Assembly (NCBI GenBank): GCA_033980235.1
Contig: CM067069.1
Span: 31,855,041-31,919,040 of the forward strand
DNA from: Diadema setosum
Lineage: Eukaryota; Echinodermata; Echinoidea; Diadematoida; Diadematidae
Direction: 5' to 3'
Length of the DNA: 64,000 nucleotides
The notes under the pieces are model-generated. The model worked only from the letters and a program-made list of their open reading frames with translations. It was not told where the DNA came from and made no database searches. Each line of letters starts with the position of its first letter. The first letter of the stretch is position 1. The translations under genes and the position numbers were made by a program. Below are positions 1-19,114 of this stretch, piece after piece.

Positions 1-3000
1 GGAAATCAGGAATTCCAATACATATCAAGTTCCCTATTATGGTAAAAAAGATTTCACCATACTTCTAGGATTCTGAATCTGAATCCTGGTGAGACGAATC
101 CTGCATTCTTGAGGGTTTTGGGATATTCAAAATGGCCCCAAGAATGGCAAACTGAAACAAAAATTTCTATGTTTTCCATATAGAGGAGAAAAAAATCGAG
201 AATAAAAATATGTATTTTTTATCATATTTCGAGGGCACTAAATCCGCATCTGGTTGTTCCAACTCTCCCATTGACTTAAATTCCTTGAGGGTTTTCGCGA
301 TATTCAAAATGGCGGCTATCATGTCCATTAAAAACAACAGCAACAACAAACATCATTTGATAATTAGAGAATGTAGATTTGTTTTGTTTTTTTCAGTAGT
401 ACCTTTTTGCTGTATCTTGAAGCTGAATTCGAATCTGGATTATTCAACTCGTGGACGAAGGTTAAACACCAGTGATTTGTATTTTCAAACGTACAGTTTG
501 TCAAATTAATAAGCCAAAATGGTGCCTCATAGGGTGTTTTCATGGATGTTAGGATTGATGTTATCATTCTGTCTAAATGATATAACTCTAACACGAACGC
601 AAAGATATGGCAAATGATTATATTTTGCCAAAAAGACATGAAATGATGACTTGCAAAGTAATGGCCGTCAGGATGGAGGTCAAGATGTGAAGTGTACCTT
701 GTACTGTCTGGTTTGTGACATGTGAAAAAAAAAGTATCTTTTAACTGACAGAGTAGTCAATGATGACTGGACACATTTATTCTTTTTTAATTATTATTTC
801 GATGAAGACCATCTTACATTCTGATTCAAATGTCTGTAGTATGGCCACCATTCTTTAGATAATGAATATTCCGCGCTGATGAAATTTGAATTAGTTTTTG
901 CGCACAATTAAATTGGACCTCCTGGATGATTTTTATGCTTTTACATTTGAACGACTATAAATTAGATAAAATGGGTACAGAGTTTCAGAATTTATAGTGA
1001 TTGGAAACAGGAATGAGAATGTTATCAAAAGTTATAACAAATTGCAATGAACAAGGATGATGACATGGCAGCCTCACCATAAAAAAAGCATGACTTGTGT
1101 TGGGGCTCAAGGAAGCTGAACAAAAGAGGAAGGCATGCATGGATTGTTGAGCAATAGGTTTTGTAATGGAATTACACTGCTACATTTCTAAAGTATGTGA
1201 GGCTCTGTGTCTTAAAACTGTTCAGTATAATTTGTTGAAGATTTTCAGTTTATTGGTTTATCTCCTCAGGGACTGCATTAAATTCCACGAATCTATTTAT
1301 GGAGCTGTCGATTTATGTACTACGTGGTGTAAAATTATGAAAATTATCCGGAAAACCTCTTTAAACTTTCTCGAAAATTCAAACGATATTCCTGCCTATG
1401 CCCTATATACTACTTCTTTGTTAAAATTTATTATCATGTGTAAGTTTTCAACTGGTTGATATTACTTCGTGGGCAAAACTACAAAATCAGTCCTTCGTGT
1501 GCGTTGTTTGTTACAGCTCCAAAACGATTAATCCTTGTCCTCCCATGAAAGCTCAAGTTTTCAACAGATGATCTCCATGCTATTCACGACTATTATGATA
1601 CTTGAGCATACACGTAGGTCCTACATTCTGAACTTTATCGGAGATTACTTTTGGCTCTTACCACGATGACATATGTACAATAACCTGCTCTACAGATAAT
1701 TTGGTCACCGTCATTACGCCAGTCTATCCAAATTGTAAAGCTATTATGCATGTCTTCTTTCATCATTAAGGTATTAGCCATATTTTTGGGCGGAAAGATT
1801 TCAAGTCTTTGTCTCTTTAAAATAACCCGAAACGTTTCTGCTGACCTGTACATACGAACAAATATTAAAGATCATTCATCCTAATCCTAACTTATATGAT
1901 AGTACGGAGGAGTGACTGTCTTCATTCATGAGCAATGAAGTTGGTTGATTAGCTAGTAATGCTGATGGTCTTATAGACATTTTCATGACACCATATTTGG
2001 GCATTTCCATACACTGTATACTCACTATAGTATTCGGTTTGCTTCTTTGTTTGTTTTGGGGTTTTTTTCTGCGATGAGTGGTTGGAGAAACTACAGGTCG
2101 CCTATGACAAAACAACAGCAAGAGCATAAGGAAGCATGTTGATAGTAGGCCTACGGTACTCACTAATTATGCTTATGAAGAATATTTTCGTGACGATCTA
2201 TACACAACGGTCATGGATTACAGCCATTTCTAATGTAATCAGAATATAACCCAGGTTTCAAAAGAATACGAAACGAATGCCAACATTCACACTAATTTTA
2301 CTGAATTTGTGGGTCTAACAATTTACTCCACATAGTAACAGATCACGAAATTTACACTAGCCGAAATGTAGTAATTTTATATTTTGGGAACCATTATTAT
2401 TGGCGACCATATTACTGTACATGAGGGATAACAGTACCGGTATATATCTCGACCTTTCTTCAATAATTAGAACTCTACAATATACAACTCCCAAAATGAT
2501 TTTGTAATATTGAATTAATTAATAATCATATTATATGTATAATGCAGCTCAGATTCAACATATACGTGTATACACATATTTTTCTTCATCACGGGGTGTA
2601 TTTCATTACACTGGTTAATATGAATCCTGATGCTTTATTTTGGTTGGGTTATGCATGTCATAACGAATATTCAAAAGCTTTAGTTCGCATTTTATGCATA
2701 GCACAGTAATAGGATGAATAAGATAACATCGAATATTAAATATGGATTCATCGTGTCACCTCTAAGAAAGACGCACTAAACAATTTTCGTCGCTCAAATT
2801 AGATGTTAAAGAAAGAGTTAAACCGAATCATTCTTTCCTCTATACAGTTACAGCTCATTTACATGATCTAAATGAAAGGCATCCATCATGTTCAGTGACC
2901 TTATAAAATAAATTTGGACGATTAGATTATTCAACTTCGATAATCGGGAGCCAAGATTCATGAATATTATTCCATTAGGGGCGATGATTTGTTTATTGAT

Positions 3001-3455
3001 ATGTAAGTTGTATTAACCTGAAACACATGAAATAAGTTACTGTAACGAGTATCATAATGATGGATGCTGTTATTTACGCTAAACATTTGAGAAATATCAG
3101 GAGGTAACAGATTGTGAAAATGCAGATATCCAATTATTGCTGTATAATATAAAAATAGATCATGTAAATTCAAAATATTTAACTGTTTAAATAAAGGGGC
3201 TGAATGTGCAAAATAATCACTGCCAGTGTAAAGTTACAAAGTAAAACGGTCAAAGTAAAAAAAATAACGTTTTCTCTACACATGTATAAAATAAAAAGAA
3301 AAATCCCGTGGATATTCCCAGATTAAAGTACATTATGCGCCATAAAAGGCGTCATCTAGATGACATGCATGCGACGAGGTAAAACACTGTTACATGTGTC
3401 CACATGCGTGCGTATGATAATGGAACCTTGATTTACTCATACTTTCATTGTCTAG
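1..3455. other. Upstream region of the Ig-NACHT gene, no supported coding exon
   Basis: AT-rich sequence with no ORF showing domain similarity I recognise. It should hold the promoter, 5' UTR and signal-peptide exon of the Ig-NACHT gene, because the first Ig exon begins in phase 1 without its own convincing start. The short reading frames here look random in composition. One weak signal-peptide candidate is listed separately at 519-602. Confidence 0.6.
519..602 (+). other. Weak candidate signal-peptide exon for the Ig-NACHT gene
   Basis: An ATG in good context (A at -3, G at +4) opens a short frame beginning MVPHRVFSWMLGLMLSFCL, which has a basic n-region and a hydrophobic core. A possible but poor GT donor (GTCTAA) after TTC T at about 572 would leave phase 1, which is what the first Ig exon at 3456 needs. 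The phase match has a one-in-three chance of being accidental, and the donor is far from consensus. An alternative start is the in-frame ATG at 3404, directly upstream of the Ig exon. Confidence 0.15.
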
Positions 3456-3761
3456 CCTCAAAGGTGGGAACTGCCCCAAACGTTCTGGGTTGGAAAGGGG
3501 AAAACATCCGATTACAGTGTCACATAGAGGGGGAGCCGCTCGCTGTGGTCTGGGACAAGAAGACCATCTCTCATCAGCCGTTGACCAAAGCTAGATACTT
3601 CGATGGGATGTTTGTGAGCGTGGAGGAACGGTTTGACATCGACAAAAACTTCAGCCTCGTCATCACAGACTTGAAGGTTGCTGACGAGGGTCGCTACCAT
3701 TGCCAAGTTATGCTGATAAATCATGAAAGTTTCTCAAATTCTACCCAAGTGACAGTTAGCT
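3456..3761 (+). CDS. Exon: first immunoglobulin-like domain
   Basis: The acceptor TTTCATTGTCTAG precedes the exon and the donor CT^GTAAGT ends it; both boundaries are phase 1, the classic Ig-domain exon arrangement. The 102 residues show the Ig landmarks: cysteine in IRLQCHIEG, tryptophan in AVVWDKK and the DEGRYHCQV motif with the second cysteine, so the fold is V/I-type. Sequons NFS and NST suggest extracellular glycosylation. The frame stays open upstream to an ATG at 3404 (MRAYDNGT...), which lacks a clear signal peptide, so I place the exon start at the acceptor. Confidence 0.8.
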
Positions 3762-6700
3762 GTAAGTATATACTTTGTCAAAATACATTCGTGCTACGCT
3801 TTCCTACTGGGTCGGGATCTAATGAGGAAATATATTTCAAGTAAATTAAGGGAAATCAAAGCAAATCAAAGACAGAGTGATTAACAGTACATTATCTATC
3901 ACAGGGTATTTTTCGATACATTAATAGTGAAGATACTATAATCATTATTGATTTGGGAGTAGTCTATTTGCCAGGTTAGTGATTTTGCAACGCATAAACA
4001 TACCATGTGAATCAAAGAGATCCGTCTACACATGATGTATGGGTAGGAGAAAAAGACACACGACTATGTAAAGAATCCATGTCCATAAGCAATCATGGTG
4101 GTCAGTCTCATCAATTCGGCATATTCCAACATCTTAAAAAAATAGAGCTTTACGTCTGGCAGAATTTCGTTGCGATATAATCCTGGTACGTAAAGATAGG
4201 CTGATTAACTGTACCAATCACGACATTCGATTGGGTAATAATCTGACTAATTTACAACCAGTGGCGTATCTAGGGGGGGGGGGGCAAGGGGGGCACGTGC
4301 CCTGGGCGCCACTCCCCGGGGGTGCAAAAAAAAAAAAACGAAGAAGAAGAAAAAAAAGGGGAAAAAAAAACGAAGAAGAAGAAAAAAAAAAAAGAGAAGA
4401 AGAAGAAGAAAAAAAAAAAAAAACTCGCCCGGAAAAGGGGGGGGGGGGCAGAAAACCAAATCAAACAAGACAAAAAAAAACAAAAAAAACATGATGCCGC
4501 CGACAAAATGACAAGTTTATTGTGTTCACACAAGAATTGTATGATGTGTAAGTAAGCTGAAGTACAAAAATTTTCGGCTAGCTCGATGCGCTCGCTCGGC
4601 AAAATTTATATAAAAAAGAAGGTAAGAACAAAACGTGATGATGACATGGACAAAATACCAATGTCTATTGTGTTCACACATGTCACTTTATATTTAGCAG
4701 GCAAAATGTTTCACGGAGCAGCGGCTGCCATTTCTTTCGTTCTGAAGCGATCGCCAATTGGATCAAAAGAAGGCGCCAACGGTTTCGAACATACGGGGGG
4801 GGGGGGGTGTGGGCGCAAAAAAAACCCCAAATCAAACAAGATAAGAACAAAACGTAATGATGACGGGGATATATACAAATTTCGGCTCACTCGCTCGTAC
4901 TAATTTAGAGTATTTTTTAAAGTCCTCAGTTTGTTGGTATAAATAGTTATCTATAAGGTCGTCACTATATCTTGTAAGAATTGTAAAATCTAATAAGCAA
5001 AAAATGACAAGAATTTCATGTTTTGTAAGCTGAAATACAAAGTTTTTCGGCTCGCTCGCCAAAAATTTATCCTCAAAAAAGAGATAAGAACAAAACGTGA
5101 TGATGACGCAGAAATATACAAATTTCGACTCACTCGCGCGTACTAATTTAGAGTATTTTTTAAAGTCCTCAGTTTGTTGGTATAAATCGTTATCGTCGTC
5201 ACTATATCTTGATTAGAATTGTAAGATTTAATAAGCAAAAAATGACAAGAATTCCATGTTTTGTTAGCTGAAATACAAAAATTTTCGGCTCGCTCGCTGC
5301 GCTCGCTCGCCAAAATTTATTTAAAAAAGAGATAAGAACGAGTCGTGATGATGCCGCGGAAATATACACATTTCGGCTCACTCGCGCGTACTAATTTAGA
5401 GTAGTTTTTCCAAGTCCCCAGTTTGTTGGTATTAATCGTTATCTATAAGGCCGTCACTATATCTTTATTAGCATTGTAAAATTTGATAAGCAAAAAATGA
5501 CAAGAATTCCATGTTTTGTTAGCTGAAATACAAATTTTTCGGCTCGCTCGCTGCGCTCGCTCGCCAAAATTTATAAAAAAAGAAATAAGAACAAATCGTG
5601 ATGATGCCGCGGAAATATACAAATTTCGGTTCACTCGCGCTTACTAATTTAGAGTATTTTTTTAAAGTCCTCAGTTTGTTGGTATAAATCGTTATCGTCG
5701 TCACTCAATCTTGATTAGAATTGTTAGATTTAATAAGCAAAAAATGACAAGAATTCCATGTTTTGTTAGATGAAATACAAAAATTTTCGGCTCGCTCGCT
5801 GCGCTCGCTCGCCAAAATTTATCAAAATTCATTACATTTAAATCACCCTCAAAAAGACCCCTTTTAAGTGCTTGAAAAAGTACATCATGTGGACTGTGTT
5901 TAAAGTCCCTACTGTGATGGGGTTGGGGAGGAACACTTTTTCAGAAATTAGGGGCGCAATTTTCGCGCTTGCCCCGGGCGCCGTTTTCCCTAGATACGCC
6001 ACTGTTTACAACACTTCAATTTCAGGTCTTGTTTAATATCTTAAGATTAATGTGTAGAATAGAAATATAATGATGTAACTGTTCTATTTGGATTAATGAA
6101 AGGAGAAATGTCTGCTTCGATTGCTTAAGGTATATTTGCTGGGGCGGTATGGTGGCGTGGTCGGTAGCGCGTCTGCTTTTCAATCAAATGGCTCGGGTTC
6201 GAGTACCATTACGTTTGGCCAGCGAGCAGTATACCCCTATGGCCTAGCTGAGTAATATGTTTAAATCGAAGTCATCCCACGAGACCGACTCCCCCGAGTC
6301 ATATAGCCCAAGAGCCCGACATCGAAAAAAGAAACCCCATTGAGTCATACGGCCAGCGAGTCATACAGCCCATGAGTTCGACACTAGGCATGTAAAGCCC
6401 AGGAGTTCGACACTTTAGATAAAAACAGCCCACAAGCATGACAAGTTCGACAGATTGTTGGCCTTGTTTGCTTAGCGTCGAACTCATTGGCTATATGACT
6501 CGTGGGCTGTACAACTCGTGGGTGTCTGTCTCGTATCGTTTGCAGCACGCCCTTCTCCCCCCCCCCCCCCTCTACACTGCGAAGGCAATTACACTGTCCC
6601 TTTGCTAAAGCAAATTCATGTTTCGTTTGTGAAGGAGTCACAACCACTTCTTTCAAAATAATTGAAAATACAAACCTTTAAAGGGATATACTCACGGCAG

Positions 6701-9700
6701 AACGCGAAAAATATCCACCTCTTTTGATTCTTCAAAGTGATTAGCAATAGTCAGCTTATTGGTGTCAACCCGTGCCACATGAAAACTAGGAGAAGATAGG
6801 GGAGGAAGAGGGGAAGGTATCTGCTTAATGAAGTTTTGAAATGAAAGAGACTTGTTATAATATCAAAATACGCCTGTATATATTGTTTTTTTTCCTTGTG
6901 TCCTAAGCTTTGGCATCAAAACACGAGATCCCGGAATGCGTCGATACAAGTCAGTTCCATCAAAGGCCATGTACATACCAAACTCCCTTCAATACTCCTT
7001 CCTTCAACCTTACCTGCGTCGTCAGTGGTTTCAAGCCTAACATTTCCATGCTGTGGACGGAGAAATCGGGGAAGAGACTTAATTCCGTGGCTTCGCAACA
7101 GACAAGACTATTTGACGACACATACGAGAGGTTCGAGACAATCACTGTTTTAGCCCAGCAAGTGACTGAGCAAACCTTCACCTGCATTGCTACTGGTGAC
7201 TCGCTGAATGGAAATTCCTCCTCAGAAATCACCGTTTTGCCAGTAGACCTCTCAGGTTTGATGAAATTTTGCCAATTTTGTGTTCCCAAATGATATTTGG
7301 GTTATGATAAAGCATTGTTGTTGATTCGGCTTTGGTTAGGGATGTTAAATCGCAGTGATCTCACGAGACCAACACCCACGAGTTCGACATTGAGAGAGAG
7401 AGAGAGAAAAAAGTCAATGAGTTACTAGTATACTGCCCACCAGCCATACAGCCCATGAGCTCGACGCTAGGCAAATAAGGCCCTTTAGTCCGGCAATAGG
7501 CATACAAGGCTCACGAGTCCAACTGTGGGAAGGTCCATCAATATTATTCTTGCTATTATTAGTATTCTCTGCGGGGGTGAGGGCAAACATTTTCAATAAA
7601 ACATACGTATGATCACGATGATTGGGATGAATTCAGAAAACGAGCACGCGACGAGTGACATTTATGGGCCGGTCTCACAAAAGTAAATTTCTACTCCCCG
7701 GAGGCATGTGAGCCCTAACGTATCACTCCTGAGGACAACATTTTCAATAAAACATACGTATGATCACGATGATTGGGATGAATTCAGAAAACGAGCACGC
7801 GACGAGTGACATTTATGGGCCGGTCTCACAAAAGTAAATTTCTACTCCCCGGAGGCATGTGAGCCCTAACGTATCACTCCTGAGGACAAAAAAGGTCCTA
7901 CACAGGGTAAACAAGGCCCATGAGCTATATCATCGGGATGGTCGGTCTCGGAGCTCTCTTGCCTCTTATCGAACTCGGGGGTCAAGTTTGCCTAATGTTG
8001 TACCGTTCTTTATTTTTTTCGTTTTTCCGAAGGTTCGTTATTCCGAAGGCTCTTTAGTCCGAAGATTCGTTATTCCGAAGGTTCGTTATTCCGAATTTCA
8101 TTTTCGGATTAACGAATCTCCGGAATAACGAACCTTCGGAATAACGCCACAAATGTGCGGATTAACGAAGCCTTTTTCATTTTCGGATTAACGAACCTCT
8201 AGATATAGGAAATTTGTGTGTTTCGGATTAACGAACCTTCGGAATTACGAACCTTCGGAATAGCAAACATTCGGAATAACGAACAGCATCCGTTGTACCT
8301 ACGGTTCTTTTTGTCCAGCTCATGGGCTGTATAACTCGTGAGCTATATGACTCGTAGACTGTAGGACTCGTGGTTGTCGGCCTCGTGACATGCAACTGCT
8401 TACTCGTTAAATTGTTTCGATAGATTGTTTGGTCATAAAATCAAATAGAACCGTTCCTATCAGACGTCAGATAGACATTCATATATAAGAAACCCTGCAT
8501 CTATTCTGGCTAGGAATCAATCACAGTCTTAACTGTGCCAAGTATGTCACAATCTATAATGTATCAAGGTTATACCCATTTAATTATCTACCTACTTCTT
8601 TTCTAAATTGGAACCACAAAACAATAATTTTTTTTTAAAATGATATAATTTTATCTTTATATTCATGTCTTCCACATTGTTAACACTTGAATACTGTCTT
8701 TGACTGTGTTTACTTCAAATATCAGGGAAACAAGGTGATCTGAGACTCACTTTCGGACTTGTCATTGGTCTACCTATTATTCTAGTCGTTCCTATTCTTC
8801 TTGTGGGAAAGTTTTTGCAAATGTACCATCCGGACTACTTACCCAGAAAAGGTGTGACAATAATATTTGTGCCGTACTTCACTAAAGCACCAAGTTAATG
8901 TTTGATGAGGGCAGACTTCAAGCTAAAAAATGATAAATGATGCATAACACAATACAAAGTAATTAACATTCTTAGCTTTTCTGAACGATAAAAAAGAAAT
9001 ACACATCCAGGAAAAGCGTTTACTGAGAAAACAGGATTTGAAGTTTCGGGTAAATTTATCGCTCACTTTGCCGTGCTCTGTGCAATGAATGAGACAAAAA
9101 CAGATCTTTAATCTCTATTATAGCCACAATGAAAATATTATCAGAATACGGCGAATGTTTTCACACTGAGTGTAAAGCACATAATTGTATCAATGAATAA
9201 TATCAACTTTAAGGCAGGAGCGCTATCCTTCGTAAAGCTATATGTACCACAGTTGAAAAAGTGGAATAATATATGAAAGATTTTTCAAGAAATGAAAAGG
9301 GGCCTTTACCTATTTTATCACACTATTCTATAAAATAATGCTGCAGAAAAACTGCAAAAACACACGTTTTTATTCTTTGCATTACTCTCGCGATTTTATT
9401 CTAAAAAAAAAAGAAGAGTGAACATTGAAGGAGTGAATAACAGAAAAGAGTGAGTGTGGAGTGAAATTGGAGTGAATTTTTAATGAAGATATGTTCATTT
9501 TCACTAATTTTGGAGTGACCTCAGGGATCACTCGTTCCACTGTCCTGTACGCAATCGCCCCAGGAGTGTTGTTTCTTTGTTTTGTTCGGCCACTAAACCT
9601 TGTGCGTATGCCCCTCTAAAATGGAAATCTCACACTTTGTTCACCGGATGGACAATTTTAACAACGGATAAGCAAAAAATATCGCCCGTTTCTTGTACGG

Positions 9701-9899
9701 TGGGTCTATCCGGCAAAGTGCGACAGGGTATAAGCCTCTGTAACAAAATTCCATTTTCACCGTTTGTGCATGCTTGGAGGTCAATTGACAAACAGGTGCG
9801 AAAGTACACTATAGCGCCTAACTTTAAAGCTAGATTCGACACTTAACGTAGAATTTTGATCACGGCCATGCGAAATAGCGAGTTAAGCAACAGATATAC

Positions 9900-9939
<40 letters not shown>

Positions 9940-12900
9940 GGGGGGGTTGTCTTAGAACTTTCAATTGGTCTAAATATCTTCATCATGAAGTTAAACTATT
10001 AGTTTTTTTTATGTAGCCTTACATTTTTTATTTTTTATTTTGTGTATTACAGGATGTGGCTGGAATCCCTGCTGGCGGATACCACATAGGAGACTCAGAG
10101 AGCGACCTGATGTGGAAGAAGAATTGATGATGGGTACGGGGAAACTGCATGATTTTTACAACCTATATATGCCACAAATAAGAAGTATATAGAAATTCAA
10201 AAAAAAAAATCCAAAGTGTGGATGGCTATTAAATTAATCGCTTCTGAAAGGATGCACATCACGATACCAACAACCACGAGTCATACAGCCAGAGATGTCA
10301 AGTTCAAAAAATTTTAATAAATGAGATGTTCATGACTCGGCGTCTCGACGCGAGCGCGAGCGAGGTAGCGAAGCGACCCGAGCGGAGGAGGAAGCTTTTT
10401 CAATTTGTGTTGGCTCAGTAAGTAGAGCGGCTGCCTCACAATCGGGAGGTCGTGGGTTCGAACCCCGGCCGCGTCATACCAAAAGACGTTAAAAGATGGG
10501 AGTTGCTGCTACCTTGTTTGCCGTTCAATAGTTGAAAAGGTTAGAGCAATGTCGATCTGGCGCTGCTCAGTGGTTGCCGGGCCCACGATCAATTGGGCAA
10601 AAAGAAGAATTTCCATTTTCGGACAATAAAATTTGGAGTTATGATGCGATCTGGTGCATACTTACGTGCCAATTTTTAACTTATTTTAAAAACAGAAGGG
10701 AAATATACCTTCAGTTGAAACTATCACTTTAATCCTTTAAGCTATGTTCCGATTCGTGAGAAAAATGGGTGTCATGCGTGAGATCGTGAGACGGACCCTA
10801 AATACCTTCTTTTTTTTTAGGAGGAAGAGGACTTTATCCTCCAAAGTCATCTGGTCCCTTCTCGCAGAACACACACTTTCTCAGAGTATAATGAAATAAT
10901 GACATGATGTGCATATTCAGAACAAACTACTTGACAAAAAATATTTGTAAAATGAAGTTTACAAGGAAATATTTCATAATAATGGTTGATGTGACGTGCA
11001 CATCTAATTTTCATGATTTGGAGTGGGCGTAGTCAACAGGGAAGGTGTGGATTTAGTACAAAATTACATCAAGTAACGTGTAACAAGTAACAGAGAGAAA
11101 AAGAATCTTGTATGTCAGGAGGATTTATCTGAATCCGATAATTCCCGAATTCAAGATTGTGTTTTGGTACTGGGCATGGTACTCCGCGGGGTTGTAACAA
11201 ACAGAGCGTAACTACATTAGGCTACTGTCTGATTGTTCGGACTTCGTTACTCTATCGGTATTAAAGCTATGGAACGTCAAGCAACGTCTTTTGAACGTGC
11301 AAGTTAGGTGGAATACGCTGAGTATTCGTTGGTTATACGCTTGTTGTTTTTTACGCTATCGTGTATTTGTTGTGCATTAATTGTTTTGGCACAGCTCCAT
11401 AAATGTACTGGGCGTAATTGGACAGCGAGCGAAAGAAACGTACATTCAGCTTGTGAAAAGTTCAAACAGCGAATGTTCAACATGTACATAGGATAATGAT
11501 TGATACGTTGTCCTCTGCCCAAGATTTTGAAAACGTCCCAAATAATGGAGAAAAAAAATTCTGCTTTGAACAGCGTTTCTCTGCGATTTCTCTGCGAATC
11601 CTTACACGAAAAGCTAATGAATACACCGCACCACAAATGTGTTATGCATAATCAGTATCAAAGAAATACGATCGTACCTCCATTTTTTTTTTGAAAACCA
11701 CGTTGAGCATGCATTGGCTCGATAGCCTATATAGCCGTAGATATTGTAATGCCTTATTATTCCCTACACCAAGGACCAGTCACTTTTAGAAGGCATCTTC
11801 TAATCTTCTAATTGTTATCCGTTGCTATACTGGAATAGTTCTTAAAATGTTTGACGTTCTTTGTATTATCAGCTATTCGAAGGGATTAGCAGAGATACTC
11901 CAGAGCCATTTTTTTTTTGGGGGGGGGGGGTGTTAATTTGAACATGTATCTCTGTGAATCCATTCTGATCTGATTTATTCTTCACTTTAATCCCCCCCCC
12001 CCTTCCTCCCCAAGCAGTTCTTCATTATCAATGAAATTGTGCTATTGCAAAGTGCTCGACTAATGGAAAACTACACAAACCCTTTTGTAATGGGTTATTA
12101 TGTCTGCGATGTCTTGATATCATTATTTGATTATTTGATCTTATCTATGCATTCCTAAACATCCATATTATCATCCACATAATAAATCACATATTACTTA
12201 TACGTATGTAAGGAGATTTGATTTGTCTGTTTTTTCGTTACTTCAAGGGTCATCACAATACTCAACCCCGCTTACAAAGGAGCATGTACAGCAATGCAAA
12301 CAAGAGCTAAAGGAATACTATAGTTTGTCACGACGCAAGATTACAGTGGATCCACTCGACTTCATTGAACGTGTTAACTTGGATGAAATCTATACAAACT
12401 TGAGCTTAATAGATCTTAGTGACATGCATAAGATCCCGCTATCGTACGAGGATATTTTGAGCAACGATGGAAGACTGTCAAAGCGCCTTCTGATTCAGGG
12501 CGAGGGAGGTGTCGGCAAAACCACACTTTGCGCTAAGATCGCCTGGGACTGGTGCCAAGGAAGGATTCTCGAGGATGTAGACATGGTACTTGTAATTCCT
12601 CTGCAAGATGTCACCGACGACAAAAGTATTGGTAGTATTATGAATAGATATCTTTCTGATTCAAATGCAGCCACACCTAGACAGTTGGACGACTATATCT
12701 CAAAGAATCCGAGTAAAGTTTTACTTGTATTTGATGGACTTGACGAGTTTAAAGGAAAAATAATAGAAGGAAAGAGCAGCAATGAGGTTATTCGCATTCT
12801 AGGACTAGAGCAATATAAGTCATGCAAGGTAATTGCGACCACACGACCATGGAGAACGGATGAATTCATGGAGGATAAGAATCTTGCTGACGCTTACACT

Positions 12901-15900
12901 TTTATCAGCATCGAAGGATTCAATAAGGAAAATTTAGCAATGTATATCAAGAGGTACTTTCGTATTAGAGAGAGGGACGTTCTCGCAGAAAGCTTGATTA
13001 GTTTCATGGAGGAAAATGATGTCATCCGGTCGAACATGGCCCCATTTCCCATCTACTGCGCGATGCTTTGCCTCATGTGGAAGGACCTTAGTAAAGAGAG
13101 ACGAGAAGAAATGCAGAAAATGAAAACTTTTTCAAGGATTTTTGGAGAGATGATCTTGTTTCTGCAGGAACACTATGCATCAAAAATGCTGAAAGCTGTA
13201 CATTACAGGAGCGTTACCAAGCATATTAAGGCAGCTGACAAGGCCATACAAGACATAGGTGAAATAGCACTGAACGGTTTATTGGACAGGAATCTTTCAT
13301 TTCCTGAAGAACAATTCAGCAAGTGCCGGGCTGCCATGGAAACATGCTGCAGAGTCGGGGTCTTGACAATAGAGAGAGATATCCTCAGTAGACAGGATCT
13401 GCGTGAAGTCAACATTTCATTTTCCGATGTGTCAAGTGTTTCGTTCCCCCACAAACTGTTCCAGGAATATATTGCAGGGATGCATATCAAGAATATATTT
13501 GCTCGTGATCGTGCGAAGTACGACATCCTGAAGGAAAAACTTCTTCTTCGATTTCAGGAGTTCCGTTTCGTGCTCTACTTCGCCTCAGCTTTAGAGAATG
13601 AGCTTGGCCTCGATATTATCCACGGCTTGATTAAATATGCCAAGAAGAATTTTTGCGTTGACGTTGCCTTTGAATGTCATACTGAGGAGGCAGCCAGAGC
13701 AGTGGGTGAAAAATGGAAAAAATATATACTATCATCGTATATATCAGAGCATACAAGGTCAGGAGTTATGTTCATGATACGCTGTAATCACGTGGTGAGT
13801 AATACAGATTTCCTTTAACTTGACAAGGACACAGAAACAATATACGTAATGTAGCATATGGCTTTGCAGTCCTGACGGTCTACTTTAGATTGAAATTTAT
13901 ATAGTAATAATAATGGTCTATGGTCTTGTACTTTCTTAGTGAAACTCAGTTATTTGAAACCCATGTTGGGATGTGTATGAAAGTCGTTATGTGATGCATC
14001 AATTCTCAAACATTTTATAACTGATCAGTCCTGAATTTGTGGAGATATAACTGTTCCGGTCTCAAAACATGCATAATGTATAAGGGGTAAATGGAATTGG
14101 AGTGTGAACAGATTCGAACTATCATCCCATTCGTTAATATGTCAAGCATGCTTTCTAAATTATTTTCTGTCTTATTGCTGTTGTTTCATTATATGTCTCT
14201 CCAGGAAACTTTGCTAAAAAAAAAAAGTGAATGGGACGAAAAAAATAAATTCATTGAGAAAAAAGTCTAAAAATGTGCTTTTTACGATTAAGTGAAATGT
14301 GAATATTAAAAAGTTACCCTTGCCAAACTGCAAGACACTAGTAGTAAACGTCTAAGTTTGAACATGCATGGTCATAGGCCCTACTGCTTATTATATGACA
14401 CTAGTAGTAAACGTCTAAGTTTGAACATGCATGGTCATAGCCCCTACTGCTTATTACATGATAAACTGTATATCTCGAAGAGAAACATATTTCGATTTCT
14501 GAAGCAGCTACATATAGAAACAGTATGAATGCTGAGGATGTCAACTTACCCCTCATTCATAGCCCATGTAGAACATAATGATTATGCTGCATGCACTCCT
14601 CCCGACCTCTCCCTACGAAATCATGCATTCGTGAAAGACATGGACGACGATAGCAACTGAATGTATAACATATTGCAAGCCCTGATTTTCATCACATTGG
14701 CTAGTATCGGTTTGACTATCTATCCACTACTATCTATCATTGTTCGTTCCCATTAGAAATCGTTATCTATATATGATATGAACTGTGGAAAGACTGTTTC
14801 ACGTGATGTGGCGGAGGGTATATGTTCCAGCAGTTCCCTGCACGAATTGCTGATAAATAACTCACACTTCCACAAGGACTTCTACGAAATCATCAGGGCA
14901 AAAGCTTCGACATGTCAGGTAAGACCATACCACCATAGCTACATAATACTTATGTTATGAGAATTGTAGTTGAAGATGGAATCTTAGTAGTTCATTGTCG
15001 AAAGGCTTAACACAATGTCCAGTGTTCTACCACCTATGAATATGAAATTAAATTCTGTATTGTCGATAAGCTTAATACTCACAAACAGGGAAGGTGAGTT
15101 TTCCCTGAAATTCCATCAGTGAAAGCAACTGATTAGTCTTCTGCTTGTTATACGTTGCACATGATAAAGATATGGTGCATTTTGATGTTATTGAGGCACA
15201 GTAGAATGTCAGTCATCAATGTCATCACTTTTTAGATCAAACATTTCCTTGGAGTATATCGATTTTTAATGATCATGTGTTAATGTTAAGGCATTCAAAA
15301 TGAAATACGTCCATCAAAATTGAAGCTCCATGGTCCAAGCCAGTCTTAACCTCAATCACACCAAGGAATTGACTGTTTTGTATCTAAAACAACAACAACA
15401 ACAAACAAACCCGAGTTTAATTGCCACCAATATTATTGTGGCAGTATAAAAACAGAAAAACAAAACAACAGCAACCAAGGGTTTCATCACGATGATGATT
15501 GCGCTAGATAACGTTGTTGGTGATGTTGTTGCTGTTGTTCTTGTTGTGTGTGTGTGTATGTGTGTATGTGTGTGTCCCCCCCCCCCACACACACACATTG
15601 ATCGCTTTTGCACCGCTTTTTGCAAAACTCAAGATTTAACCACGGGGAGGGGGGGGGGGGTGGCTGGGGGGTCTCGCGTTCACCTGAGTATTTTAAGTTC
15701 ACCTCCTATGTATCGTTGGAGACGATTACCTGTGTCATTTGCTATGTTTTATCCTTTGTATCAGATTAAAGATCTCAAGTGGTCTTTTAAACGCTTTGAG
15801 GAAAACTTACGGAATCAATTCTCCATGGGAGAACAGTTGGCCCTATGGGTGTGTACTATACCAAGTCTTTCGAGATTTAAGGCAGGGTGCTACCACTTGC

Positions 15901-18118
15901 CCGAAAATTTCCTCTCAACGGCCGCCACCGTAGCATCATTCTGTCAGGTATGTCAAGTGTAATCCTGAGTCACCATATTTGACCAAGAGTAACTTTGCTT
16001 GTGTTTTTAGAATATTTTTTTTTTTGGCCATTGCTGACCAGCAGGGACTGCTCATTTTTCCATAATGTCGAAGAAGGTTAGAATATAGAATCACTTGTAC
16101 GTGTATTTTCTTTATTTTTCTTAATCACGGGAATCACTTATTCACAGTTTTTGGTATATGTAAGCATTTTTAAAATTATGTTATACTTTTGATCGACTTT
16201 GGTTAATATATTTTGTCTTTCTTGTTACAGATTGAACAACTGACGTTGTCTTTATGGAACTCGGATGACGATTCTGAATATCAGTCGTCAATGGGAAGTG
16301 ATTTGGCAGAATGGGTTTGTGCTATGCCACGTCTGACGAATTTCAGTGTGAAATGCTACGACTTGTCTGATGAATTCTTCTCGTCAGCCTCCTACCGCGC
16401 ACAATCATGTCAGGTATACATGAATATAAAAAATCAGAGTTGAATCCTCAATCATCAGCTCATTACAATTTTCGACAAGTAATAAATGCAGAGGATGCAA
16501 TTTACAAACTAATAATAACTTTGCTTCATTTGATTATGTAATTTGGGTCTCTCATCATCTTTTCTTTCGCTTGCAATGAGGTTTCTTTATGCTCCTAAAA
16601 ACAACAGCACTGCAGCATGTCAGATGCGTTGTACCTGTAGAAATAGATTAATGTACACTGTAATTATAAGGACACAATGCGAGAAATCAAGTATCCCTGA
16701 AAAAGTGCTTTCCATTTTTTTTTTTAATTCCTCAGATCCAAGAGCTTTCCATGAAGTTGTATGGAGATTACATTTCAGAGAATGCAGCAGTGAATTTGGC
16801 TAAATGTCTGTCTCAACTGCCTCACCTCAAACGTGCTGTTCTCATATGCCGTAATCTTCATAAGGCATTCTTCAAAACAGTTGCGTCACTAGCAACACAC
16901 TGTAAGGTGAGTACATGAAAATCTATCAGGCGCTGTCAGACAGGCCAAAGATCGAGAAGTTTAAAAAATAATGATCTTTCAATCTCAAGTTTTGACCGCG
17001 CCTAGTGTGACCACAAACTCCCCGCGAAATTTCTCGCGAAGCTTCCTTCCCACCCCAACCAGAGATATTCCCCCACCCCCGTCAAACTTCTCGATCTGTT
17101 GCCAGTATGACCACTAGCCCACCACTTGTTTGCGGTCAGGGGGGCATTTCATGAAGCATTTTGTCCGACAAATTTGTTCTCAGTCAATCAGATGGAAGGA
17201 TTTCAACAGCTTATAACAATTTGTCAGAAAAATATCCGACCAAACTGCTTCATGAAATGCCCCCCACGTGTGCATTGTAACGTCACAAATCACTAGCCAT
17301 CAGACGGCGCGCTCTTTCTTCCTTGCGCGCTAATGACCCAAACTTCTCGGTTTGGCTGCTATGAGTGTGACCGCGTGACAAGAGATGGCGAAAACTGCTC
17401 GATCTTTTACAAAGTTTTGGTAAGTATTGAGGGCGACAACGATGCATAAGATCTTATCGAGGGCATTTTTACCCGGTAAAAGCAAATTTTACAGCATTTA
17501 TATATCCTTATGCCTCACGTATATAGCCGTAGGGGAGAGAGAGAGAGAGAGAGAAAGAGAGGGAGAGAGGGAGAGACAGAAGGCGTGGTCAGGCTGGCAA
17601 AAGATCGAGAAATTTAAGATCGCGATCTTCAAGATCTCAAAGTTTTGCCAGTGTGACCGCACGACAAAAGTTAGCGAAGACTTCGCGATCTTAACCTTCC
17701 GATCATTTGCCAGTTTGACCGCGCCTAAACAGACAGAAAAAAGAAGAAATAGAATAGGCTCTATATTGTATACACAACACAACTGAAGTTCGTATGATTT
17801 GCAACTTCCATTTCATAACTGTCTTTCAGTAAGTGAAACTATCCAAATCAAATCATAATAGAATATACCTTCAGGACCACAATCGTATGCGACAGCATCT
17901 ATACGCTGTAATGAAGCAGGTTTTCGTTTGAGAAAATACCAATCTATGATACCGGACATATTACAGATGCATTATTTATATTCCATCTACTTACATGATT
18001 TCTGATGTTTGATCGTTGTTGCTTTTTCGTCTCGTACATGCTACAGCTGGACGATATCAAAATTAATGGAGAACCGTTGAGCAAATTGCTCGGTGACAAT
18101 CAACAAGACTTGACAGAG
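3456..18118 (+). CDS. Membrane-anchored NLR-like receptor: Ig-Ig-TM-NACHT-LRR (10 exons seen, ends incomplete)
   Basis: Ten exons (3456-3761, 6908-7255, 8726-8851, 10053-10133, 12248-13794, 14757-14918, 15765-15947, 16231-16413, 16736-16906, 18047-18118) join with consistent phases (1-1-1-1, then 0-0-0-0-0) into about 1059 residues. The order is two Ig-like domains with paired cysteines and N-glycosylation sequons, one transmembrane helix, a basic juxtamembrane stretch, a NACHT ATPase (Walker A GEGGVGKTT, Walker B LLVFDGLDEF, TTRPW), an NLR winged-helix motif (FPHKLFQEY) and irregular LRR-like repeats. The glycosylation sites and the positive-inside rule predict Ig domains outside the cell and NACHT-LRR in the cytosol. 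NACHT proteins are usually nucleotide-switched innate sensors, so an extracellularly triggered immune receptor is an inference. The exons could instead belong to two neighbouring genes, but the joined phases and the lack of a stop between them argue for one. The first exon is unknown and the last is ambiguous. Confidence 0.75.
4259..6004. mobile_element. Nonautonomous hAT-like DNA transposon, 1746 bp
   Basis: Perfect 17 bp terminal inverted repeats (CAGTGGCGTATCTAGGG at 4259-4275 and its complement at 5988-6004) are flanked by identical 8 bp direct repeats, TTTACAAC, on both sides. An 8 bp duplication and a CAGxGGCG-type end are hallmarks of hAT elements. No transposase ORF is present. The interior has a G-run, a polypurine GAA/A tract (about 4325-4490) and tandem units of about 243-252 bp. 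It sits in the intron between the two Ig exons. Confidence 0.88.
4619..5830 (+). repeat. Tandem repeats of about 250 bp inside the hAT-like element
   Basis: Units begin near (g)ataagaac at 4621, 4840, 5083, 5331 and 5583, giving periods of about 243-252 bp for the later ones. Each unit carries TTTCGGCTCACTCGC, TCCTCAGTTTGTTGGT, an AAAAATGACAAGAATT block and, in the later units, a GC-rich palindromic box, GGCTCGCTCGCTGCG. Copies differ by small changes. The short frames read through them are artefacts. Confidence 0.8.
6141..6245 (+). repeat. tRNA-derived SINE-like fragment
   Basis: A pol III B-box-like motif GGGTTCGAGTACC (6195-6207) follows an A-box-like GTGGTCGGTAGCGC about 30 bases upstream, in tRNA-like spacing. 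No complete cloverleaf is apparent, so it is called a SINE head rather than a tRNA gene. Confidence 0.5.
6276..6537. mobile_element. Inverted-repeat MITE (family A, copy 1)
   Basis: The left end CACGAGACCGACTCCCCCGA is mirrored at the right by a stretch ending GGGTGTCTGTCTCGTA. The interior consists of reiterated short phrases such as CATACAGCCCATGAGTTCGA and their complements. No ORF. A second member of the family lies at 7358-8392 in the next intron. Confidence 0.6.
6908..7255 (+). CDS. Exon: second immunoglobulin-like domain
   Basis: The acceptor tract TTTTTTTTCCTTGTGTCCTAAG precedes the exon and the donor CTCAG^GTTTGA ends it, phase 1-1. Joining to the first Ig exon gives VTVSS-LASKHEIPE with no stop. 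About 116 residues include an Ig/C1-like core: cysteine in FNLTCVVSGFKPNIS, tryptophan in SMLWTEK and a second cysteine in QTFTCIATG. Sequons NLT, NIS and NSS indicate an extracellular location. It continues as VDLSG into the transmembrane exon. Confidence 0.8.
7586..7887. repeat. Exact tandem duplication, 2 x 151 bp
   Basis: The block beginning AACATTTTCAATAAAACATA occurs at 7586-7736 and again at 7737-7887. I see no difference between the copies, which points to a very recent duplication or an assembly duplicate. Confidence 0.9.
8028..8286. repeat. Clustered TTCGTTATTCCGAA inverted-repeat array
   Basis: Phrases TTCGTTATTCCGAAGG and the complement CCTTCGGAATAACGAA are repeated many times, changing from one orientation to the other around 8100-8130, which makes a hairpin-prone array. 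Variants include GGATTAACGAA. No coding potential. Confidence 0.75.
8726..8851 (+). CDS. Exon: transmembrane helix
   Basis: Acceptor TTCAAATATCAG, donor AAAAG^GTGTGA, phases 1 and 1. The 42 residues contain one long hydrophobic helix, LTFGLVIGLPIILVVPILLV, followed by GKFLQMYHPDYLPRK. The acidic/polar side faces the Ig domains and basic residues follow the helix, so the positive-inside rule puts the C-terminal NACHT part in the cytosol. This exon is the physical link that makes the protein membrane-anchored. Confidence 0.78.
8852..10052 (+). other. Intron with (GT)n microsatellite
   Basis: No exon supported. It holds a GAGTGA-rich stretch (about 9412-9490) and a (GT)n run at 9902-9936 followed by a G-run. 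The frame at 9577-9846 has no recognisable domain and is treated as spurious. Confidence 0.6.
10053..10133 (+). CDS. Exon: basic cytoplasmic juxtamembrane segment
   Basis: Acceptor TGTGTATTACAG, donor GATGATGG^GTACGG, phase 1-1. It encodes about 27 residues with GCGWNPCWRIPHRRLRERPD then VEEELMMG. The cysteines and arginine cluster just inside the membrane fit a palmitoylation or lipid-contact region, but that is inference. The join to the NACHT exon at 12248 keeps phase 1. Confidence 0.65.
10411..10600 (+). repeat. tRNA-derived SINE
   Basis: The head reads TGGCTCAGTAAGTAGAGCGG (A-box region) and GGTTCGAACCCC (B box, 10455-10466), followed by a tRNA-unrelated body (AAGACGTTAAAAGATGGG, TTGCTGCTACCTTG). 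The layout of a tRNA-like head plus a constant body is a SINE, and it sits in an intron of the Ig-NACHT gene. A GC-rich, CGAGCG-type block lies immediately upstream at 10338-10395. Confidence 0.72.
10821..10885 (+). other. Possible optional exon, frame does not fit
   Basis: A strong polypyrimidine acceptor (CTTCTTTTTTTTTAG) is followed by an open stretch, GGRGLYPPKSSGPFSQNTHF, in the phase left by exon 10053-10133. It ends at a GTATAA donor in phase 0, which would shift the NACHT exon's frame. It could be an unused acceptor or an alternative exon giving a truncated product. Confidence 0.15.
10886..12247 (+). other. Intron before the NACHT exon
   Basis: No supported exon. It contains a poly-G run near 11920-11931 and a poly-C run near 11993-12002. 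Frames at 11304-11694 on both strands overlap each other and show no domain. Confidence 0.6.
12248..13794 (+). CDS. Exon: NACHT ATPase domain with winged-helix region
   Basis: One intronless exon of 515 codons begins after the acceptor TTTTTTCGTTACTTCAAG and ends at CACGTG^GTGAGT in phase 0. It opens with a helical linker (QELKEYYSLSRRKI, LDEIYTNLSLIDL) of the kind that precedes NACHT in invertebrate NLR-like proteins. Walker A is GEGGVGKTT (12499-12525), Walker B LLVFDGLDEF (near 12718-12750) and the sensor-like TTRPW sits at 12838-12852. The motif FPHKLFQEYIAG (13444-13479) matches the NLR winged-helix/superhelical region. All key ATPase residues look intact, so it should bind nucleotide and switch conformation or oligomerise, as the family does. 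The frame is also open for some codons upstream of the acceptor, with no in-frame ATG. Confidence 0.92.
13795..14756 (+). other. Intron with a 63 bp tandem duplication
   Basis: No exon seen. A 63 bp unit (14334-14396) beginning GACACTAGTAGTAAACGTCT is repeated at 14397-14459 with two substitutions. Confidence 0.75.
14757..14918 (+). CDS. Exon: LRR-like repeat 1
   Basis: Acceptor TTCGTTCCCATTAG, donor TGTCAG^GTAAGA, phase 0-0, 54 residues. The pattern KSLSIYDMNC...VAEGICSSSS-LHELLINNSHFHKDFYEII...ASTCQ has two strand-like LxxLxI segments about 28-30 residues apart, as in NLR leucine-rich repeats. It ends CQ just before the donor, like the next two exons. Confidence 0.65.
14919..15764 (+). other. 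Intron with CAACAA, (TG)n and C/G runs
   Basis: Holds CAACAA repeats (about 15388-15402), a TGTGTG stretch (15543-15572), a C-run and a G-run (15647-15660). No exon other than the flanking LRR exons is supported. Confidence 0.6.
15765..15947 (+). CDS. Exon: LRR-like repeat 2
   Basis: Acceptor TTTGTATCAG, donor TGTCAG^GTATGT, phase 0-0, 61 residues: IKDLKWSFKRFEENL... then LALWVCTIPSLSRFKAGCYH... ending SFCQ. It aligns by eye with the following exon (LAxWVC-xxPxLxxFxxxCYxL), showing internal duplication of a two-strand LRR module. Confidence 0.7.
16231..16413 (+). CDS. Exon: LRR-like repeat 3
   Basis: Acceptor TCTTTCTTGTTACAG, donor TGTCAG^GTATAC, phase 0-0, 61 residues: IEQLTLSLWNSDDD... 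LAEWVCAMPRLTNFSVKCYD... ending QSCQ. Same length and phase as the preceding repeat exon, so this looks like an exon duplication. Confidence 0.72.
16736..16906 (+). CDS. Exon: LRR-like repeat 4
   Basis: Acceptor TTTTTTTTTTAATTCCTCAG, donor TGTAAG^GTGAGT, phase 0-0, 57 residues: IQELSMKLYGDYISENAAVN-LAKCLSQLPHLKRAVLICRN... ending THCK. It is the most regular of the repeats, with clear L-xx-L positions. Confidence 0.75.
16927..17727. mobile_element. Inverted-repeat element in an LRR intron, with nested MITE
   Basis: The left end CAGGCGCTGTCAGACAGGCC with AAAGATCGAGAAG is mirrored, with mismatches, by CTTCCGATCATTTGCCAGTT with TGACCGCGCCTAA at the right end. An internal near-copy of the end occurs at about 17583-17615. 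The short MITE at 17139-17265 is nested in it, and a (GA)n run lies at about 17535-17575. Confidence 0.6.
17139..17265. mobile_element. Short MITE, 127 bp
   Basis: Perfect 20 bp inverted ends: GGGGGGCATTTCATGAAGCA at 17139-17158 and the complement at 17246-17265. No coding capacity. Confidence 0.8.
18047..18118 (+). CDS. Exon: short LRR-like half repeat
   Basis: Acceptor CTCGTACATGCTACAG, donor ACAGAG^GTATAA, phase 0-0, 24 residues (LDDIKINGEPLSKLLGDNQQ then DLTE). It resembles the first half of a repeat unit and is probably close to the C-terminus. Three downstream acceptors could supply the last coding exon in the same phase. Confidence 0.6.
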
Positions 18119-19102: not shown

Positions 19103-19114
19103 TTTAAAACATAG
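19103..19114 (+). CDS. Candidate terminal exon (FKT stop)
   Basis: A strong acceptor, TTTTCCATTATCTTTTTCAG, is followed in phase 0 by TTT AAA ACA TAG, which would end the Ig-NACHT protein as ...DLTEFKT. It is the nearest acceptor to exon 18047-18118. Alternatives at 21138 and 22473 fit equally by phase. Confidence 0.35.
   Translation, partial: FKT

Follow-up and report, generated by a model that had tools for sequence, protein, structure and literature searches.

A 64-kb stretch of the Diadema setosum genome (64,000 nucleotides, C11:31855041-31919040, hereafter the window) carries a gene in which two Ig domains, a transmembrane (TM) segment, a NACHT NTPase and LRR-like exons follow one another in a single open frame (Table 1). 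We propose, with a probability of roughly 0.6, that it is an intact member of a large germline family of Diadema genes and would encode a type I membrane receptor, built from a signal peptide, a V-set domain, a C-type Ig domain, a TM helix, a basic linker with the motif CGWNPCW, NACHT and LRR-like repeats, that serves recognition at the cell surface; of the architecture itself we are nearly certain. NLRs are generally regarded as cytosolic, and vertebrate NLRC4, NOD2 and NLRP3 are cytosolic proteins with an N-terminal CARD or PYD. V-set receptors such as JAML, CD2 and 2B4 are not known to contain NACHT.

Table 1. Exons of the window gene and loci of a related module; positions are counted from the first base of the window unless a contig is named.
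Feature	Position	Strand	Evidence
Signal-peptide exon MDTRYDLILLLTLTAYMIRYPRAT	C11:31854276-31854348, outside the window (-765..-693 relative to base 1)	+	HMM match
Ig domain 1, V-set	3456..3761	+	Pfam V-set 2.4e-12
Ig domain 2, C-type	6908..7255	+	Pfam C1-set 8.3e-6; splice sites
TM exon, 126 bp, symmetric phase 1-1	8726..8851	+	hydropathy 2.75 over 19 residues; at least 150 genome matches
Juxtamembrane linker exon, 81 bp, CGWNPCW motif and basic stretch	10053..10133	+	splice sites; dN/dS 0.34 among 8 genes
NACHT NTPase with HD/winged-helix region	12248..13794	+	Pfam NACHT 4.3e-21; sub-threshold NOD2_WH; NLRP3 and NOD2 in PDB sequence search
LRR-like exon 1	14757..14918	+	tblastn 85% to P0001; splice sites
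LRR-like exon 2	15765..15947	+	tblastn 97% to P0001; splice sites
LRR-like exon 3	16231..16413	+	tblastn 98% to P0001; splice sites
LRR-like exon 4	16736..16906	+	tblastn 54% to P0098; splice sites
C-terminal exon, LDDIKINGEPL...	18047..18118	+	splice sites; similar peptide by eye in P0003
Possible 12-base terminal exon, FKT-stop (tentative, weak)	19103..19114	+	acceptor and frame only
Ig-Ig-TM(-linker)-GTPase loci	C16:4.1-4.4 Mb, C16:24.1-25.5 Mb, C28; L034:1-1724	same strand	TM/GTPase exon pairing

The Ig, Ig, TM and NACHT exons lie where the initial annotation had placed them, and Pfam, hydropathy and splice sites agree on this: the Pfam matches lie in 3383-3841 (V-set), 6907-7290 (Ig C-type) and 12139-13815 (NACHT), and the top 19-residue hydrophobic stretch (mean 2.75) and all 12 best hydropathy windows fall in the exon at 8726-8851. 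All junctions of the spliced model are GT-AG, the phases run 1-1-1-1 and then 0 as had been claimed, and the frame contains zero stops. The earlier argument on topology stands in one half, as the basic linker residues after the TM segment fit Ig domains on the outside; its other half, sequons on the Ig side, is weak because five N-glycosylation sequons precede the helix and five follow it. By eye, the introns at 4260-5990, 7560-7870 and 8030-8290 contain repeat-like sequence (a block of repeated units, a direct duplication with nearly identical copies and a short stretch of inverted repeats) that is probably left over from transposable elements.

Position 3456, where the initial annotation begins, is the start of an internal exon. 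No signal peptide was found within positions 1-3455 of the window; an HMM of 43 family N-termini, whose common form is MDRRYDLVLLLTLTA, found the signal-peptide exon further upstream (E 4.5e-7 over 40 kb), with the donor CAG|GTAAGT in phase 1 and reading in frame into the Ig1 exon. With this exon in place 765 bp before the window begins, the gene looks complete from its sequence, the 3' end being less sure. With signal peptide, V-set Ig and single TM, the predicted product has the features of a type I Ig-superfamily membrane protein. tblastn matched no other family copy in the 64-kb window outside this gene. Two tandem neighbours lie upstream of the window, at C11:31800835 and C11:31835164, of which the nearer has the full Ig1-Ig2-TM-linker-NACHT order and the farther at least TM and NACHT.

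The NACHT exon has Walker A (GEGGVGKTT) and Walker B (LLVFDGLDE) motifs and reaches 74.4 bits against a Pfam cut-off of 26.7, and a winged-helix/HD fold follows the NBD, as in an NLR. Pfam gives zero LRR matches in the window model; the C-terminal exons are called LRR-like on a paralogue model and a fold match, helix-strand repeats in the AlphaFold model of P0028 aligning with NLR chains up to residue 1022. Death, CARD, DED and TIR are absent from the Pfam domains listed at E 0.01, the N-terminus being occupied by the Ig domains and TM, and ITIM-like motifs gave a few pattern matches in five proteins inspected.

The protein table used below holds gene models only, and the DNA was therefore checked directly. 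Ten NACHT loci were sampled (ranks 1, 6, ... 46 of 102 scored). Six have a family-type NACHT, and in 6/6 of these it is preceded on its own strand by Ig1, Ig2, TM and linker in this order; the other four (31-36% identity) have none of Ig1, Ig2, TM or linker within ~18 kb. A phase-1 acceptor was called for 28/30 exons of the six genes, the linker and NACHT of paralogue r46 being without a call, and in two linkers another acceptor scored better for pyrimidines. Genome-wide, 102 of the 150 scored NACHT exons are preceded on their own strand, within 25 kb, by a family TM exon, against 1/150 downstream and 2/150 on the opposite strand in the controls. Sorted by identity to the family consensus, the pairing holds for 59/59 NACHT exons at 80% or more, 33/48 at 70-79% (15 without a scored upstream TM exon), 10/31 at 60-69% (21 without) and 0/12 below 60%. 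Genome counts are lower bounds, because part of the candidates was scored (102 of 203 for NACHT by Pfam, 150 of 172 for TM and 150 of 178 for NACHT protein), and some loci score identically, so that near-identical ones may be assembly duplicates. Since the exon order is found again at other loci of the genome, the layout is not chance, and judged by these exon matches the window gene is one of a germline family of about a hundred predicted Ig-TM-NACHT loci.

The initial annotation knew of no well-described receptor class with this layout, which is wrong in part, two sea cucumber receptors having been published. AjNLRC4 of Apostichopus japonicus (accession MN607598), studied by experiment, is an Ig-Ig-TM-NACHT receptor reported on the coelomocyte membrane, whose Ig domains bind microbes and which promotes actin-dependent phagocytosis (PMC8699970, 2021); a second paper reports that upon internalisation its Ig part recruits a homologue of caspase-1, which results in cleavage of MLKL (PMC11932488). 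AjNLR-new of the same species also has Ig, TM and NACHT in one protein, with a reported inverted topology, NACHT outside, Ig inside and two TMs (PMC13133943, 2026), whereas the opposite, conventional arrangement is proposed for the Diadema gene. A sponge study mentions putative membrane-bound NLRs. No publication on the Diadema family was found in a literature search whose coverage excluded most subscription journals.

The window gene could on this background be a direct orthologue of AjNLRC4 by common descent, that is, a known family in a new species, and the two are alike in order and phylum, with two N-terminal Ig domains outside, a TM, NACHT inside and no CARD (PMC8699970); V-set NLRs are reported in Chiridota heheva too. 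We think this unlikely. Compared by published description, the maps differ, AjNLRC4 having a TM at 483-503, a second at 776-795, no LRR and longer spacing (PMC8699970), and the Diadema gene LRR-like exons, one evident TM and ~100 loci. The nearest NACHT relatives also argue against it. A search for which the long paralogue P0004 supplied the NACHT query, covering proteins in the length band of that query so that shorter relatives are missing, gave 109 proteins: 57 are from Diadema, 35 belong to other sea urchins and 17 are more distant. The 35 (P0125-P0159, from S. purpuratus, L. variegatus and L. pictus, including isoforms of a single gene) are the nearest non-Diadema NACHTs listed, at ~33-45% identity to the family consensus, and 0/35 have similarity to Ig, TM or linker; 31/35 carry a Death annotation (PF00531). 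The 17 distant relatives (one a crustacean) have no Ig in the Pfam annotation column, and no protein named for A. japonicus is among the matches listed, either the 120 of 181 in the homologue table or these 109 (16 without a species name).

A NACHT tree of hand-picked rows (the window, 27 Ig-TM proteins, 19 Diadema proteins without Ig and 11/35 from other urchins) joins the Diadema rows in one clade (100/100) against the 11 other-urchin rows. The deepest Diadema rows are without Ig, placed there by nodes of modest support (84/43, 85/75), and one of them, P0118, is a Death-NACHT protein (28.1 bits, cut-off 22.6), the 1/9 no-Ig Diadema proteins scanned that reaches the Death cut-off (P0056 was omitted for size and P0095 put in). 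Some no-Ig Diadema rows nest within the Ig-TM group; these may reflect loss or incomplete gene models. From this tree and these annotations, it was probably in the Diadema lineage that the Death domain in a cytosolic NLR of Death-NACHT type gave way to the Ig-Ig-TM phase-1 exons. By its predicted architecture, the Diadema family is a much expanded variant of a receptor kind known from sea cucumber; new are its LRR-like repeats, the number of its loci and the way in which it seems to have arisen.

Among gene models, the homologue table lists 120 of 181 matches, 77 from D. setosum and 43 from D. antillarum, with no other species among those listed. The order Ig (one or more), TM, NACHT is found in 79/120 listed homologues of the two Diadema species, and both Ig types occur with TM and NACHT in 70/120 (49 D. 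setosum, 21 D. antillarum); the remaining listed homologues have Ig and NACHT without TM (9/120), no Ig (28/120) or no long NACHT match (4/120). The initial annotation would have been undone by the absence of the fusion from related species, and D. antillarum has gene models with the fusion as well. In a tree of the two species (68 proteins with one near-complete NACHT, Ig1 and Ig2, plus the window model), D. setosum and D. antillarum interleave, at least nine label changes being forced by supported branches, and the Ig-TM-NACHT layout therefore seems older than their split. Ectodomain length varies, as some homologues (P0005, P0006, P0010, P0112, P0119 and P0120) carry between four and six tandem Ig domains, and these differences probably arose by Ig-exon duplication.

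The best database match of the window gene, the D. setosum protein P0001, has 912 identities over 976 columns, 42 of which are the TM exon skipped in P0001. Its model leaves this exon out in frame and joins Ig1 to LRR-like exons at the N-terminus, and the skip could be an error of gene prediction or reflect an isoform that is soluble or cytosolic. If the symmetric 126-bp TM cassette were skipped in the main transcript, the product would mostly be a soluble or cytosolic Ig-Ig-NACHT-LRR protein. That P0001 omits exactly this exon fits such a case, as do P0049 and P0072, which pass from Ig2 to the linker without TM, and the nine listed homologues with Ig and NACHT but no TM; we nevertheless regard it as improbable, given that 148/150 genomic TM-exon matches are free of stops in the matched part and that Ig, TM and NACHT stand together in the 79 listed homologues above.

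A decaying or decoy copy in the window, without signalling, is less probable again: large families contain pseudogenes and one of the six sampled family loci is broken (r46, with a stop in the linker match and a broken NACHT frame), yet the open frame, Walker motifs, signal peptide and splice sites of the window gene are all intact, and 912/934 gap-free aligned residues are identical to the D. setosum protein. Pooled over eight genes, the perhaps broken r46 among them, dN/dS is 0.45 for Ig1, 0.30 for Ig2, 0.44 for TM, 0.34 for the linker and 0.30 for NACHT, and a linker so constrained makes most sense with TM and NACHT in one protein. That an Ig-TM receptor and an NLR are two neighbouring genes, only seemingly fused, has very little left in its favour, for tandem clusters exist, gene predictors fuse adjacent genes (P0001 seems to be a case) and four of the 120 listed homologues have Ig-TM without a NACHT match, but the closest NACHT exons have an upstream same-strand TM exon in 59/59 cases, the constrained linker exon separates TM from NACHT and has a phase-1 acceptor in 5/6 sampled genes, and Ig and NACHT identities in the set of 68 proteins and the window model correlate (rho 0.64, 2346 non-independent pairs). 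Kept exon order, phases, signal peptide and purifying selection across paralogues bear out the reading of one membrane-anchored Ig-Ig-TM-NACHT-LRR gene with which the annotation began.

V-set receptors commonly bind through the GFCC'C'' face. Mapped on the AlphaFold model of paralogue P0028 (pLDDT 73.9), this face takes 21/23 of the most variable Ig1 columns while making up 53/102 columns (Fisher p 1e-5), and its dN/dS is 0.62 vs 0.30 elsewhere in Ig1. Bootstrapping of columns gives 0.46-0.88 for the face and 0.19-0.46 for the rest, ranges that just touch, and in seven closer pairs the contrast shrinks to 0.58 vs 0.38. The GFCC'C'' face changes faster than the rest of the V domain, short of positive selection. 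Positive selection on Ig1 was considered and set aside, the dN/dS of 1.32 behind it having come from columns chosen by entropy, which is circular, while the face chosen by structure stays below 1.

For an intact type I receptor of this family, the following mechanism can be outlined. The GFCC'C'' face of the V domain would bind microbial or other ligands outside the cell, and recognition by this face is a step to which we give somewhat better than even odds. Receptor clustering would then lead to nucleotide-dependent oligomerisation of NACHT beneath the membrane, a switch that we judge evenly balanced between holding and failing, and the LRRs may keep it off or sense a second signal. The output may be coelomocyte activation or uptake, as reported for AjNLRC4; by that analogy, a phagocytosis-type response is suggested tentatively, with less confidence than the steps before it.

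The TM exon also occurs away from NACHT. No family NACHT lies within 25 kb downstream of 48/150 TM-exon matches, and on C16 and C28, a restriction chosen after the locations of the GTPase matches were seen, 22/22 NACHT-less TM exons are followed on their own strand by an exon for a small P-loop GTPase, in 17 cases at less than 2.7 kb; four of these 22 also have a GTPase exon upstream, as expected of tandem arrays. Among gene models, P0112, P0121 and P0122 combine Ig and TM with parts of the GTPase, and P0123 has another tail after the linker. P0122 scores 22.1 against Pfam MMR_HSR1, just above the cut-off of 21.9; the best hit of the GTPase part in a PDB sequence search has E 0.21, and the predicted structure of an Ig-TM-GTPase protein is unusable (pLDDT 36). 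We know of no receptor with an Ig-TM-small GTPase layout. Downstream of the other 26 NACHT-less TM exons, which include 13 on C26 and eight at C4:34.9-35.2 Mb (L035), neither NACHT nor GTPase was found.

In Diadema, Ig-Ig-TM may be a portable phase-1 module, placed before NACHT-LRR at ~100 loci and before a small P-loop GTPase at ~20 loci. The two would then make up one large system of germline-diversified surface receptors, which arose when a Death domain was replaced, separately from the Ig-NACHT receptors of holothurians; we would wager neither for nor against this wider scheme.

An NLR switch beneath a variable surface Ig domain offers a direct test of whether an extracellular ligand can drive NACHT oligomerisation. 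The Diadema family suggests that a Death effector was exchanged for a surface sensor. Mass mortalities have struck Diadema sea urchins, and given these, their repertoire of surface receptors would be of practical interest.
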